DNA of 64,000 nt from Azonexus hydrophilus (GTDB taxonomy: Bacteria; Pseudomonadota; Gammaproteobacteria; Burkholderiales; Rhodocyclaceae): the NCBI RefSeq assembly GCF_001956855.1, contig NZ_MTHD01000003.1:124001-188000 (forward strand), written 5' to 3'. Shown here piece after piece: positions 1 through 4,038 of the stretch. Position 1 is the stretch's first letter. Each line of letters starts with the position of its first letter. The notes beneath the pieces are model-generated. The model did not search any database, had not been told where the DNA came from, and saw only the letters and a list, made by a program, of their open reading frames with translations. Both the position numbers and the translations under genes were made by a program.

Positions 1-1318
1 TGCCCATGCCGCTGTCGTGGACGGTGAATTCAAGGCGGACTTGCCGCTCCCCGGGGGCGTCGAGCTGACGGACCTCAACCTCGATGCCGCCACGGTCAGT
101 GAACTTCAGCGCGTTGCCGACCAGGTTGATCAGTACCTGGCTCAGCCGCAGCGCATCGCCCTGCAGCAGTGGCGGCACGTTTTCGCAGCCGGCAAACGTC
201 AGGCGCAGACCCTTGCTGCGCGCTTTCAGGGAGAACAGCCCGGCGACCGAGCGGAAAACCGTGGCCAGTTCGAAGGGGGCGCTTTCCAGCGTCAGGCTGC
301 CGGCTTCGACCTTGGAGTAGTCGAGGATGTCGTTGATGATGCCGAGCAGCGATTCCGACGACTGGACGACCTGTTCGAGGTATTCGCGCTGCTGGGTGGC
401 CAGCGGCGAATCGACCAGCATGTGGCTGAGGCCGACGATGGCATTCATCGGCGTACGGATCTCGTGGCTCATCCGTGCCAGGAAGTCCGATTTGGCGCGG
501 CTGGCCTGGCGGGCATCGGCGATCGCCTGCTGCAGTTCGGCGGTACGCTGGGCGACCATGGTTTCCAGTGATTCGCGGTAATTGGCCAGTTCCCGGTCGC
601 GTAGCTGCAGCGAGTCGAGCATGCGGTCAAAGCTCTGTCCCAGGCTGCCGATCTCGTCGCTGCGCTGCGTCGCAATGCGCTCGTCGAGTTGTGCGTCCTG
701 CGAGATCCGGTTGGCCAGGTCGTCCAGTTTTTCCAGGGGCTCGGTCAGCCGGCCGACGACATAGCGGGTCAGCAGCAGGGCGCCGGCCAGCGCCAGCAGC
801 AACAGGAAAGCGGTTTCCCTGACCGTGTTGCGCATGGTCGTGTGGTATTGCACGAGCGATGCGACCAGCTCGATATGCCCAGCCGGGGTTGGTTGTTCAT
901 AAAGCTGGATCGGTTGCCGGACGATCAGGTAGCCATCGAGGAAGCGTGGTGTGACCTCGGTGTCGGGAAAATTGTGGCGACTTGCGCCTACGCGTCGATA
1001 TTCACCCAGGATAGAGCCATCTGGCAGCACTACCCGGCTGCTTTCGATGGCCGGATTGACCGCGAGCGATTCCAGCAGTCGGACTGCTTCGCGCCGGTCG
1101 GTAAAGGCGATCGCCGCCTGCATGTTGTTGGCCAGCAGGCGGGCCTGTGCCGTCATCGATTCGGCCCATTGGGTCTGCAGCAGTTGCCGCTGCTGGGTGA
1201 ACACCAGCGCGAAGACCATGCACACCATCAGCAACAGGAACAGGAAGGACAGCGCAACCAGCTTGTTGCGGATGGTCGGCTCGGGCAGCAGCCGTTCCTT
1301 GAGCGTCCGCTGGCTCAT
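1..1318 (-). CDS. CHASE8/HAMP sensor histidine kinase (partial)
   Basis: Inner-membrane sensor kinase; its 3' end lies outside the window, so about 439 residues are visible. Reading the minus strand from the ATG at 1318 gives a membrane helix near residues 17-41, a periplasmic domain with the CHASE8-like pattern NNMQAAIAFTDRREA, a second helix near 170-190, a HAMP linker, a HisKA domain with [14 protein letters not shown] (phospho-acceptor His near 284) and the start of the ATPase domain (N-box LVGNALKFTD near 402, then DSGMG at the edge). The start overlaps the stop of the YfiR-like gene by four bases (ATGA), so the two are probably translationally coupled. Many relatives carry a C-terminal receiver; that part cannot be seen. 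Confidence 0.9.
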   Translation of the reverse strand, partial: MSQRTLKERLLPEPTIRNKLVALSFLFLLLMVCMVFALVFTQQRQLLQTQWAESMTAQARLLANNMQAAIAFTDRREAVRLLESLAVNPAIESSRVVLPDGSILGEYRRVGASRHNFPDTEVTPRFLDGYLIVRQPIQLYEQPTPAGHIELVASLVQYHTTMRNTVRETAFLLLLALAGALLLTRYVVGRLTEPLEKLDDLANRISQDAQLDERIATQRSDEIGSLGQSFDRMLDSLQLRDRELANYRESLETMVAQRTAELQQAIADARQASRAKSDFLARMSHEIRTPMNAIVGLSHMLVDSPLATQQREYLEQVVQSSESLLGIINDILDYSKVEAGSLTLESAPFELATVFRSVAGLFSLKARSKGLRLTFAGCENVPPLLQGDALRLSQVLINLVGNALKFTDRGGIEVEVRQLDAPGERQVRLEFTVHDSGMG

Positions 1319-1845
1319 GGTTCGATCACCCGCGCCAGTCGCAGCAATTGGGCATTGAATTCGAAGCCCCGGTTTTGTGCTGTGCGCCGGTTGAGCACGA
1401 TGCCGATGCGGGCGCCGTCGAGCGGCAGTTCGATCATGCCGCCGGCGCGGGCAAAGCCGGCGATGTCGGAAACAGTGACGAGTTGCCTGCTGGCGCTGCG
1501 CTCCAGCCAGAAGGCGAGACTGACCGATTCGCTGCGCGGGATGAAGAGCAGGTGGCAGACGCTCAGGTCGGTCGGTGTCAGGCGGACCTCGATGTTCGGG
1601 GTGCCGCCGTCGATCTGGTTCAGTGCGCTGCCGAAGGGGTTCTTGCCAACGACGCACAGGACGGTTGGTTTCGGTGGGGGGGCACCGCCGGGCCAGTAGA
1701 CGAATTGCGACAGGCGATAGAAGAGGACGGCCTTCATGCCGTATTCCGAGACATCCTGGGCGAGCAGGCGCGCCGGCAGCAGCGCGATCAGCGCCAGTGC
1801 AGCCAGCAGCAGGCGGTGGGATGAAAGGAGTCTCGGCAACCGCAC
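1315..1845 (-). CDS. YfiR-family (DUF4154) periplasmic protein
   Basis: A 176-residue exported protein. It starts with an alternative GTG, three bases after the TonB-receptor stop, and has a signal peptide (LLLAALALIALLPARLLAQ). The mature part carries typical YfiR/DUF4154 blocks: YGMKAVLFYRLSQFVYWP near the N-terminus, CHLLFIPRSE in the middle and VSDIAGFARAGGMIEL near residue 130. In Pseudomonas, YfiR represses the diguanylate cyclase YfiN through its periplasmic domain. Here the neighbour is a histidine kinase with a similar CHASE8 sensor, so I infer that this protein modulates that kinase. Two cysteines (VLCVVGK, SVCHLLF) could form a disulfide. Confidence 0.85.
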   Translation of the reverse strand: MRLPRLLSSHRLLLAALALIALLPARLLAQDVSEYGMKAVLFYRLSQFVYWPGGAPPPKPTVLCVVGKNPFGSALNQIDGGTPNIEVRLTPTDLSVCHLLFIPRSESVSLAFWLERSASRQLVTVSDIAGFARAGGMIELPLDGARIGIVLNRRTAQNRGFEFNAQLLRLARVIEP

Positions 1846-1848
1846 GGG

Positions 1849-4038
1849 TCAGAAACGGTATTCGAGCGTGCCCATCAGGGTCCGCGGTTGCTGGGGCATG
1901 GCCTGCATGACGGCACTCGACGACGAGGTGTGGGCCGCGTAGTAGCGGCGGTCGAAGAGGTTGTACACGTCAAGGTAGAGCGACAGTCGTTCGTCGGCCA
2001 GCTTGTGCAGGCCGATGTGCAGGCTGGCCAGCGTGTAGTCGTCGGTTTTCCTGACCCGGTCGTTTTGCACGCGGTTGATCGCGCCGGTGGTGGTGTCGTC
2101 GATCCATTGCACGCGCGGGGTGATGGTCAGCCAGTCCTGGTAGCGCAGGGTGAGTCCGAGCTTGACCTTGTGGGCGGCGATGTTGATCTGTTCCAGCTCC
2201 GGCCCGTTGGCGGTTTCCCGGAACGAACCCTTGACGTAGCTGTAGCTGCCCCAGAAATCTGCGGTCCACGGCCCGCCGAGGTGCATTTGCCACTGCGGGA
2301 TGATGTCGATGCCCTGATACCGGTCGTTGCCGCTGTTCTGTTTGGAGTCGGTGGCGGTGAGCACGGTGCCGGGGATGTACTGGATCGGTGTGGCATTGGC
2401 GCGGGTGACGATGACGTTGTCGACTTCGGTCAGGTAGGCGTTGGCGACCAGGTTGAAGTTGCGCAGCGGGCGCCAGTCCCAGGTTGCCGACCAGGTGCGC
2501 GATTTCTCCGGTTGCAGGTCGGTGTTCGGGGCACGGAAGGTGCCGGTCGGGTTGCCCAGATTGTTGAAACTGCCGAAGGCGCTGTAGCTTTCTTCCGGCG
2601 ACGGCGTGCGGAATGCTTCGCCGTAGAGCAACTTGATGAAGTTGCCGGGCAGCACCTGCCAGACCAGGCCGAGGCGGGGATTGGTGCTGCCGCCGTAGGT
2701 CGAGTACCAGTCGTGACGCAGGCCGGCGACCGTCGAGAAATCCGGTGTCCATTGCGCCTGCCATTGCAGGTAGCCCGACCAGCTGTGGTAGCGCGCCTCG
2801 AAAATCTGCAGCGGCAGGTTGGTGTTCGGATAGTTCATGCCCTGCTCGTTCGGCGACTTGCCTGTGTCATATGGGCGTGGCAGGTCCGGGGCCTCGATTG
2901 CGTGGTAGTTGCGATAGCCGATGCCGGCGAGCACGCTGTGGGTATCGCTGGCCCGCCAGTTCAGGTTTTGCTCGATGCCGGCGCGTCGACCGTAGGCGTA
3001 GTCGTAACCGTGGTTGGCGAAGTCGGTGAAGATGTTGATGTAGCGGCTTTTCGGGTCGAGTTCGTAGCGCGAGTAGTCGACCAGCGTTTCGCTGCTGAGC
3101 GACGCGTTGATGTTGAAGCGATAGCGGGCGTGCCAGGTGTCGATGGTCGTGTCCCAATAGGCGCTTTCGAGATACAGCGCACTGCTCGGGCGGTCGCCGG
3201 TGCTCGACAGGCTGCGGAAACGGTTGCGCTGAAAGCCCAGCGTCAGCCTCTCGCCGGCGTCGATGCGCAGGTACTGGCTCTGGCTGCTGATGCTGCCGGT
3301 GTAGTCCTCGCGCTGCACTGCAGGTACGACCACGGTGCCGCCGAAGGTGCGGGCATTGACCTTGGGAAAATCGTCCGGGTAGTAGTTGTCGAGTGGCGCC
3401 CGGTCGCTCTTCTGGTAGTGGGCGCCGGCGGTGATGCCGATCGCTTCGCCAAACTTGCCGCTGGCCAGGAAATCGCCTTCGAGCGAGCCGAAACTGCCAG
3501 CGCCGAGCGCCACCTTGCTGCCGGCTTCGCCACCCTTGTCGGTAATGATGTTGATCACGCCGGCCAGCGCGTCGGCGCCGTAGAGCGCGGCAGCCGGGCC
3601 GTAGAGCACCTCGACCTGGCGGGCGAAGTGCAGCGAGAAGTTTTCGGCGATCGGAATCTTGCCACCGGCCGGGTGGTCGATGCGGACGCCGTCGAGCATG
3701 ATCAGCAGCTTGTTGTTGCTGACGTTGCCCTGGAAAACGAAATTGTTGTACTGGGTGGACCGGGTGCCGCGCTGGAAGTCGACCCCGGGCAGGTCTTCGA
3801 GCAGGTCGGCCAGATTCTTGTAGCGCCGGTCGCGCATCTGCTCGCGGGTGATGACCATGATGTGCGCGGGGGTCTGCTCGCGGGCTTCGGCGCGCCGCGA
3901 AGCCGTGGTCACCGGGATGGCGATCAGCTCATCGAGGGATAGGGGCAGCAGGGGACGCACGTCATCCGCGGCGCGCAACGGTGCGGCGGTACAGAGTGCC
4001 AGTGCCAGGGCAACGATCCCCTGATGTCGGTAGTGCAT
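1849..4038 (-). CDS. TonB-dependent outer-membrane receptor
   Basis: A 729-residue outer-membrane receptor that would use TonB energy to import an unidentified ligand, or sense it. The start at 4038 is chosen because it begins a clear signal peptide (MHYRHQGIVALALALCTAAP) and follows a GGGGGG-AA ribosome site. Residues about 30-160 form the plug (ELIAIPVTTASR, LADLLEDLPGVDFQRG, LLIMLDGVRIDHP, ALYGADALAGVINII); the rest is a beta-barrel ending in the terminal aromatic EYRF. It is first in an operon with YfiR and the kinase. The short leader contains CCCC/GGGG blocks (4046-4051 and 4069-4072) that could pair and mask the ribosome site. No N-terminal signalling (FecA-type) domain is seen. Confidence 0.92.
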   Translation of the reverse strand: MHYRHQGIVALALALCTAAPLRAADDVRPLLPLSLDELIAIPVTTASRRAEAREQTPAHIMVITREQMRDRRYKNLADLLEDLPGVDFQRGTRSTQYNNFVFQGNVSNNKLLIMLDGVRIDHPAGGKIPIAENFSLHFARQVEVLYGPAAALYGADALAGVINIITDKGGEAGSKVALGAGSFGSLEGDFLASGKFGEAIGITAGAHYQKSDRAPLDNYYPDDFPKVNARTFGGTVVVPAVQREDYTGSISSQSQYLRIDAGERLTLGFQRNRFRSLSSTGDRPSSALYLESAYWDTTIDTWHARYRFNINASLSSETLVDYSRYELDPKSRYINIFTDFANHGYDYAYGRRAGIEQNLNWRASDTHSVLAGIGYRNYHAIEAPDLPRPYDTGKSPNEQGMNYPNTNLPLQIFEARYHSWSGYLQWQAQWTPDFSTVAGLRHDWYSTYGGSTNPRLGLVWQVLPGNFIKLLYGEAFRTPSPEESYSAFGSFNNLGNPTGTFRAPNTDLQPEKSRTWSATWDWRPLRNFNLVANAYLTEVDNVIVTRANATPIQYIPGTVLTATDSKQNSGNDRYQGIDIIPQWQMHLGGPWTADFWGSYSYVKGSFRETANGPELEQINIAAHKVKLGLTLRYQDWLTITPRVQWIDDTTTGAINRVQNDRVRKTDDYTLASLHIGLHKLADERLSLYLDVYNLFDRRYYAAHTSSSSAVMQAMPQQPRTLMGTLEYRF

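Follow-up and report, generated by a model that had tools for sequence, protein, structure and literature searches.

A TonB-type receptor, a YfiR-like protein and a CHASE8 hybrid kinase as a probable trans-envelope signalling unit in Azonexus hydrophilus

Results

Organization of the locus

The window, which is the whole stretch of 64,000 nucleotides of Azonexus hydrophilus DNA that was analysed, begins with three genes that an earlier note had described as overlapping or abutting and as encoding an outer-membrane receptor, a YfiR-like periplasmic protein and a CHASE8-sensor kinase. Our analysis confirmed this gene unit, with all three genes on the minus strand and with Pfam domains as claimed. 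The features are as follows.

1849..4038, minus strand: TonB-dependent-type outer-membrane receptor (Pfam Plug 1.2e-19, TonB_dep_Rec_b-barrel 5e-40)
3910..3960, minus strand: receptor residues 27-43, VRPLLPLSLDELIAIPV, an N-terminal tag immediately ahead of the TonB-box position; candidate segment for docking to YfiR
1315..1845, minus strand: YfiR/HmsC-like periplasmic protein of 176 aa (PF13689 1.9e-27; GTG start)
1..1318, minus strand: N-terminal part of the hybrid histidine kinase (the rest lies outside the window, to L003:8703)
932..1177, minus strand: CHASE8 periplasmic sensor domain of the kinase (PF17152 3.2e-12, above the Pfam cut-off)
1097..1117, minus strand: AAIAFTD segment of the kinase sensor, counterpart of the AAVVF motif in YfiN
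605..760, minus strand: HAMP domain of the kinase (PF00672 1.1e-10)
299..496, minus strand: HisKA phospho-acceptor domain of the kinase (SHEIRTP; PF00512 2.1e-21)

The receptor gene starts with the ATG at 4038, with GGGGGGAA upstream. Three bases lie between its stop codon and the yfiR start, and the kinase start at 1318 overlaps the yfiR stop codon by ATGA. The sequence past base 1 was fetched, which completed the C-terminus of the kinase (REC-Hpt). The full protein of 871 aa has the order CHASE8-HAMP-HisKA-HATPase-REC-Hpt, with six Pfam matches over the cut-off. A fourth gene, overlapping the kinase gene and followed by proA, encodes a REC-GGDEF regulator whose GGEEF site is intact. Together with the HisKA, HATPase, REC and Hpt domains of the kinase, this REC-bearing regulator makes up the gene set of a hybrid phosphorelay (Pfam, all over the cut-off). 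Because the kinase gene overlaps a REC-GGDEF gene with an intact GGEEF site, the relay at this locus probably ends in c-di-GMP, as judged from the gene content. The contrast of a phosphorelay instead of c-di-GMP has to be softened, since the adjoining regulator gene is of the diguanylate cyclase type. A second receptor/YfiR/CHASE8-kinase triplet, with no adjoining response regulator, was found elsewhere in the A. hydrophilus genome (locus L004).

In cell-surface signalling of the FecA/FpvA type, a TonB receptor starts a trans-envelope signal. The receptor studied here likewise heads a presumed trans-envelope route, but its neighbours are YfiR and a kinase rather than an anti-sigma/sigma pair. 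Pfam gave no match to the STN signalling domain in this receptor, in which about 30 residues separate the apparent signal peptide from the plug, and FecA-type signalling was therefore rejected. By eye, its IPVTTAS occupies the place of the VVTAS-type box in many receptors that are not linked to YfiR.

The YfiR-like protein and the kinase sensor

The YfiR-like protein scored 96.5 bits against PF13689 (curated cut-off 24.9). When its single sequence was run with phmmer against the PDB no chain was matched, and a profile was needed; the profile built from 48 relatives matched the solved YfiR of Pseudomonas aeruginosa with an E-value of 1.6e-18. Cys64 and Cys97 align with Cys71 and Cys110 of P. 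aeruginosa YfiR, and both are kept in at least 90% of the aligned sequences (48 of 52 were included). This disulfide pair bears on another explanation of the locus. In it, the receptor serves transport, its gene merely shares the operon and its synthesis is what is regulated, while YfiR senses the periplasmic redox state by a disulfide and controls the kinase with no receptor contact. Published redox control of HmsC (PMC8846402) agrees with such a scheme, as do the 13 of 80 unfused YfiR-kinase loci where no receptor was present in the searched neighbourhood, some of these being cut by contig ends. In favour of a joint unit, a YfiR domain was found naturally fused to a kinase in three genomes, all from a single genus (L143, L246, L247). 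Long YfiR frames that seemed to be receptor-YfiR fusions (L244, L245, L248) proved to be overlapping frames only.

The YfiBNR system of P. aeruginosa has also been reported from Escherichia coli and Klebsiella, and as HmsCD from Yersinia. The A. hydrophilus locus resembles it in that yfiR adjoins the gene for a CHASE8/PAS-HAMP inner-membrane partner, in the AAxxF segment and in the first disulfide pair. It differs in its output, the membrane partner being a hybrid kinase (REC and Hpt domains included) that lacks GGDEF, and at the outer membrane, where the partner is a TonB receptor and no YfiB match was found at the locus. The idea that the kinase sensor is of the YfiN type, which the earlier note had suggested, was not refuted, and three observations agree with it. 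First, profile-profile comparison shows homology (probability 99.7%, E 2e-25) between this sensor and those of YfiN-type cyclases whose genes are not directly preceded by a receptor gene. Second, in its AlphaFold model (pLDDT 93.8) the sensor folds as a domain of the PAS/Cache type; the nearest match is a WalK model (E 4e-10), and CitA is matched weakly (E 0.015). Third, the AAxxF segment is kept: AAIAFTD aligns with EAAVMFGD of the YfiB-linked cyclase at L056. In an alignment of 48 of the 53 non-redundant kinase sensors (five were omitted), F72 of this segment is invariant and D74 is found in at least 90%. On the other side, the AAxxF pattern as written here matches 55 of 80 kinase sensors; the looser F.D...A matches 73 of 80. 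The AAVVF motif has been proposed as the binding site of YfiR in YfiN (PMC3375315). Against the PDB, phmmer with the single sensor sequence matched nothing; a profile was needed, and most of its matches cover HAMP and the membrane region, not CHASE8. Mirror trees of 61 units gave a YfiR-sensor correlation of 0.27, which is weak and not above that of YfiR with the kinase core (0.29), so that YfiR-sensor co-evolution was dropped as support; the partial correlation of YfiR with the receptor was 0.20, the permuted maximum being 0.23.

Recurrence of the unit and distribution of YfiB

To describe the neighbourhoods of yfiR, 144 of 180 distinct YfiR places were taken, the 36 omitted being mostly close relatives and weak partial matches; trimming removed the yfiR gene from two loci (L079 and L114), so that 142 genes across the family and the phylum were left. 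Labels were assigned with profiles iterated from the two A. hydrophilus units, and Pfam was used as a check on some proteins only. A receptor gene lies directly upstream of yfiR in 94 of the 142 cases. Directly downstream we found a CHASE8 kinase in 80, a CHASE8-GGDEF protein in 33 and neither kinase nor cyclase in 28. The complete order of receptor, YfiR and CHASE8 kinase is present at 61 of the 142 genes. Together with the second triplet in A. hydrophilus itself, this argues against a chance arrangement, and the triplet that the earlier note had expected to be conserved does recur. Within the genus, the unit is located between holA and proA in four of six genomes (A. hydrophilus included) and is missing as a block in the other two; in one congener (G838) the kinase of the unit is shorter and a REC-GGDEF gene is missing at that place. 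Of 81 kinase loci, one of the 81 being a fusion, 24 have a REC-GGDEF gene among the two genes that follow and 57 do not, so that the c-di-GMP output is not general.

Using a YfiB profile built from three sequences, we found a YfiB match at 13 of the 142 YfiR genes, all of them receptor-free, and at none of the 105 receptor-linked loci (same strand, within 4 kb); the two A. hydrophilus loci (L003 and L004) gave no YfiB match. This is as expected if the receptor fills the role of YfiB, and it speaks against a redox-sensing YfiR that does without the receptor, an explanation that we regard as distinctly unlikely. The profile also matched a frame at the receptor locus L108, which is on the minus strand, farther off, and looks spurious. 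When the N-termini of YfiB were compared with the receptor tag, no similarity was seen: 7 of 14 sequences were scored, none above 0.7 bits (random frames reached 2.4), several of the 14 frames starting past the true N-terminus.

The N-terminal tag of YfiR-linked barrels

Receptors linked to YfiR bear an N-terminal tag of the LSLEELL type, which was not found in 43 of 45 unlinked receptors that were read. The patterns used for such readings, here and for the channels below, were written once the sequences had been seen. The test to trust is therefore a separate tag profile trained without the seven test genomes, although some training genomes were of the same genera; with it, all 15 YfiR-linked receptors that were read scored at least 6.7 bits (10.6 for the A. 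hydrophilus receptor), and 43 of 45 unlinked receptors scored at most 2.3. The tag is also present in an unrelated barrel family, the COG4313-type channels, where it was read in 19 of 19 YfiR-linked members and in 0 of 11 unlinked ones, although profile scores separate these channels less cleanly (linked 4.0-21.7, unlinked up to 3.0). The presence of the tag thus follows linkage to YfiR in both of these unrelated families of barrels, a further argument against the redox explanation.

The tag could instead do no more than mark a single old lineage of receptors that happens to accompany YfiR, and have no function in signalling. The receptor tree (midpoint root) is compatible with this, with 31 of 32 YfiR-linked receptors in one clade of 39 (support 0.94), and 18 of the 19 channels with the tag are such close orthologues that they amount to about one event. 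However, six unlinked receptors nested in the tagged clade do not have the tag, and the linked receptor outside the clade (L030) has the tag-like VADMDLDELTNVSV, as judged by eye. Moreover, a distant member of the channel family (L232/L249) is tagged as well, the tag being found only beside YfiR among the 30 channels read. We consider a clade marker quite improbable.

Discussion

The pairing of YfiR with a kinase is already known. Malone et al. (2012) described in silico YfiR and a YfiN-type sensor joined to (hybrid) sensor kinases, including a case in Thauera, and proposed a modular YfiR-sensor core (PMC3375315). The A. hydrophilus unit shares this combination, whereas the passages on these variants describe neither the receptor nor the tag nor the REC-GGDEF partner, and the string TonB does not occur in the main text. 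The module is also unmentioned in PMC11344244, PMC8620254 and PMC8919034. What is new here is the tag, a candidate docking segment for YfiR.

The data support the interpretation of the TonB receptor, YfiR and CHASE8 kinase as a signalling unit. We consider it likely that they form one trans-envelope unit, a relative of YfiBNR with both ends exchanged, in which YfiR gates the kinase, the receptor tag acts on YfiR and c-di-GMP is the output. A TonB-type receptor would replace YfiB at the outer membrane, and the CHASE8-HAMP unit at the inner membrane would drive a hybrid histidine kinase in place of a GGDEF domain. YfiR would bind CHASE8 at the AAxxF face and thereby keep the kinase in one state. 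We infer that the signal runs from the receptor to YfiR: capture of a ligand, perhaps with TonB-driven movement, would alter what the tag, as a putative binding partner, offers to YfiR, which would leave the sensor or rearrange on it. The kinase would relay phosphate from His to Asp to the Hpt His and on to the Asp of the REC-GGDEF regulator, upon which c-di-GMP would rise.

A different division of labour is suggested by VpvABC of Vibrio cholerae, which has the gene order vpvA-vpvB-vpvC and predicted outer-membrane, periplasmic and inner-membrane places (PMC12456836). Published labels are porin or hypothetical protein for VpvA, and periplasmic binding protein or hypothetical protein for VpvB (PMC12456836, PMC8754643). 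The likeness to our locus lies in this three-gene order and in the c-di-GMP end; the difference is that VpvC is a membrane cyclase, whereas the third protein of A. hydrophilus is a kinase and the cyclase is a separate REC-GGDEF regulator. By analogy, the receptor might import a small ligand that periplasmic YfiR binds before it signals to the sensor, with no touch between receptor and YfiR. A closely similar model has been printed for VpvA, VpvB and VpvC (PMC12456836), and weak binding of vitamin B6 and of tryptophan by YfiR has been described (PMC4887326). Import of this kind leaves unexplained, however, both the tag that is common to YfiR-linked TonB receptors and channels and the confinement of YfiB to receptor-free loci, and we judge it somewhat unlikely. 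Within the genus Vibrio, a receptor upstream and CHASE8 downstream were found at 29 of the 30 YfiR places read (37 were listed). VpvABC is probably the cyclase version of the receptor-YfiR unit; if the unit works as proposed, it would also account for VpvA and VpvB, whose annotation is poor.

More tentatively, and with slightly less than even confidence, we propose that the tag DLxxLSLE[ED]LLxIxV serves as a portable docking segment by which any outer-membrane barrel, whether TonB receptor or COG4313-type channel, may be joined to YfiR and from there to a kinase phosphorelay or a cyclase. The way in which signals pass from the outer surface to kinases and cyclases of the inner membrane is not settled, and the inputs of Yfi-type systems are poorly known. 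A receptor-YfiR unit as favoured here would, if right, make available a large number of naturally occurring receptor-YfiR-effector units in which a ligand for the outer-membrane partner can be looked for, and the short tag would predict which barrels signal rather than merely transport. A portable tag would in addition imply a general, exchangeable route of trans-envelope sensing that depends neither on FecA/FecR nor on YfiB, with barrels recruited by gaining the tag.

A four-gene unit at the window edge

An earlier note proposed that a TonB receptor, a YfiR-like protein and a CHASE8 histidine kinase form a single signalling unit within positions 1 to 4038. We found this three-gene unit to be real, its genes abutting or overlapping in the following order of transcription:

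4038-1849, minus strand: TonB-type receptor (first gene)
1845-1315, minus strand: YfiR-family protein with a GTG start (second gene)
from 1318 to beyond the window edge, minus strand: hybrid kinase (third gene)

The receptor stop is separated from the YfiR GTG by a 3-base gap, and the YfiR and kinase genes overlap by ATGA. The window covers bases 124001-188000 of contig C11 in its genome. The unit is larger than previously seen: extension past base 1 completed the kinase C-terminus, giving an 871-aa protein with CHASE8, HAMP, HisKA, HATPase, REC and Hpt domains, all above Pfam cut-offs, and added a fourth gene, encoding a 308-aa REC-GGDEF protein, which overlaps the end of the kinase gene. This regulator contains GGEEF, and 5 residues ahead of it an RxxD motif that we take to be an inhibitory site. 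A small frame overlaps the regulator end, and proA lies past that frame. Some 7 kb beyond the end of the kinase gene, a phosphonate-type periplasmic binding protein is encoded (PF12974, 4.2e-51; minus strand, 381-1385 of L003, the window locus with its flank). Six genomes of the genus were compared, the home genome among them, with proA identities of 87-100%. The unit lies between holA and proA in four (home, G062, G894, G838), and holA adjoins proA in two (G112, G867) with no unit between. The unit behaves as a block that is either there or missing; that of G838 has a shorter kinase, and the REC-GGDEF gene is missing from that place.

Resemblance to YfiN and YfiR

The kinship of the kinase sensor with YfiN, also suggested in the earlier note, held up. 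Profile-profile alignment of 58 kinase sensors with 16 sensors of cyclases that have no receptor directly upstream gave a probability of 99.7% (E 2e-25), and by its sequence the kinase sensor is of the YfiN type. The AAVVF segment, proposed as the binding site of YfiR by Malone et al. 2012 (PMC3375315), is kept in the window kinase as AAIAF. F72 of this kinase is invariant across 48 aligned kinase sensors. The segment pattern occurs in 55 of 80 kinase sensors and 28 of 33 cyclase sensors, and a looser F.D...A pattern in 73 and 23, respectively. Sensor and HAMP were modelled together by AlphaFold (271 residues, pLDDT 93.8), and the model had three PDB matches at E ≤0.001, the top one being a WalK model (4e-10), followed by WalK and CitA sensor crystals (E 0.002-0.03). 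The window YfiR aligns with solved YfiR via the family profile; compared with that structure, the first cysteine pair is kept and the second absent.

Recurrence of the triplet

Both places in the home genome that match YfiR (PF13689) lie in receptor-YfiR-hybrid kinase triplets, the second of which (L004) has no adjoining regulator. YfiR-positive genomes, with home counted each time, numbered 58 of 121 in the family, 70 of 299 in the phylum and 81 of 399 in the order. The family and phylum searches returned 180 distinct YfiR places, of which 144 were taken with both home loci, leaving 142 YfiR genes after trimming. With labels assigned by profiles seeded from the home proteins, and with counts that are not independent events because many loci come from related genomes, a receptor lies directly upstream of YfiR in 94 of 142 cases. 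Directly downstream we found a CHASE8 kinase (80), a CHASE8 cyclase (33), a fused kinase (1), or another or no gene (28, contig ends truncating some loci). The full triplet, whose recurrence was in question, is found at 61 of these 142 genes of family and phylum, and 24 of 81 kinase loci have a REC-GGDEF gene in one of the two following positions. The unit is widespread.

Several arrangements depart from this pattern. In L085 (9990-11498, plus strand), an adenylate/guanylate cyclase domain replaces GGDEF in the regulator after a YfiR-CHASE8 kinase pair, which suggests a different cyclic nucleotide as output. In L008 (1713-12395, plus strand), two tandem receptor-YfiR pairs precede a single CHASE8 hybrid kinase with a REC-GGDEF gene, resembling the Thauera system of two YfiR proteins and a hybrid kinase named by Malone et al. 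2012 (PMC3375315). The module has naturally expanded in G222, a 3.7-Mb genome whose seven YfiR genes (L093, L097-L099, L105, L106, L143) are arranged in several ways. A YfiR domain fused to HisKA-HATPase-REC, with no CHASE8, occurs in three genomes of a single genus:

L143, 4973-7567, minus strand: YfiR-kinase fusion
L246, 4999-7555, minus strand: YfiR-kinase fusion
L247, 6865-9451, plus strand: YfiR-kinase fusion

In the L143 fusion, a coiled-coil-like stretch and a hydrophobic segment, recognized by eye, lie between the two parts, and the next gene encodes a REC-HD (HD-GYP-like) regulator, which suggests a c-di-GMP-type output. Such fusions hint independently at YfiR-kinase coupling.

A probably exchangeable outer-membrane partner

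In Pseudomonas, the OmpA-like protein YfiB is a partner of YfiR. YfiB accompanies 13 of the 142 YfiR genes, each with a CHASE8 cyclase and without a receptor, and no YfiB lay on the same strand within 4 kb at any of the 105 receptor loci. The outer-membrane partner of YfiR is exchanged, a receptor probably standing in for YfiB. Because YfiB grips YfiR partly via an N-terminal segment (F48, W55, F57, in the crystal complex, PMC4887326), we inspected the N-termini of 60 of the 88 receptors found in seven genomes. All 15 receptors with a YfiR gene no more than 5 kb away carry an LSLEELL-type segment, or tag, just before the TonB-box position (L201 in a poor version), and 43 of the remaining 45 lack it. 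A tag profile trained on 81 linked receptors from other genomes scored at least 6.7 bits in all 15 and at most 2.3 in the same proportion of unlinked receptors (43 of 45). An incomplete comparison detected no tag in YfiB.

The two unlinked receptors with a tag are L213 (7808-9893, plus strand), a strongly tagged orphan 31 kb from the nearest of its genome's seven YfiR genes, and L212 (6495-13723, minus strand), where a receptor with a tag-like N-terminus ends an operon-like series that includes KdpD-like, REC-Hpt and REC-PAS-GGDEF-EAL genes but no YfiR.

In a receptor tree, 31 of 32 placed linked receptors fall in one clade of 39, and the tag within receptors could therefore be inherited. At L140, a different outer-membrane protein occupies the receptor position beside YfiR. 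It has a weak Pfam assignment to Phenol_MetA_deg, just under cut-off, and its model (pLDDT 78, with a 48-residue N-terminal tail of low confidence) best matches a COG4313 channel and FapF. Across 147 genomes of that family, we examined 30 of the 40 places with a homologue. An LSLQDLF-type tag follows the signal peptide in 19 of 19 channels with YfiR within ~1.5 kb and in none of 11 without YfiR at that distance (two of these inspected out to 7 kb), with profile scores of 4.0-21.7 and at most 3.0, respectively. Close orthologues make up 18 of the 19 tagged channels and amount to approximately one event; the other (L232, context L249) is a distant member in a different gene order. L249 (3966-8289, plus strand) is a rearranged module encoding, in sequence, a CHASE8-GGDEF protein, the tagged channel as a non-TonB outer-membrane partner, and YfiR. 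Since neither plug nor TonB box is visible in these channels, the tag is probably not a TonB feature; it would be more than receptor ancestry. The common denominator of tagged receptors and channels is YfiR, and we therefore propose the tag as a candidate YfiR docking segment.

Relation to known systems

Malone et al. 2012 (PMC3375315) reported relatives of YfiN with several kinds of output, histidine kinases among them. VpvABC of V. cholerae is described as a porin, a periplasmic binding protein and a membrane cyclase, with vpvAB as a possible conserved sensing unit, Thauera included (PMC12456836). The YfiR of L141 is identical to that of Vibrio splendidus MOR1. YfiR occurs in 31 of 80 genomes of L141's genus, and at 29 of 30 YfiR places examined there (37 listed) a receptor lies upstream and CHASE8 downstream. 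Given this order in genomes of the genus and the published description of VpvABC, the latter is likely to be the cyclase form of the module. In listings of the open-licence literature, we found no description of a TonB receptor-YfiR pair or of the tag. The unit is a variant of already known Yfi-type systems. The home unit is best read, from its sequence, as a Yfi-type trans-envelope switch that takes its input through a TonB receptor and passes its output along a phosphorelay to a diguanylate cyclase; its new part is the proposed exchangeable, tagged outer-membrane input.
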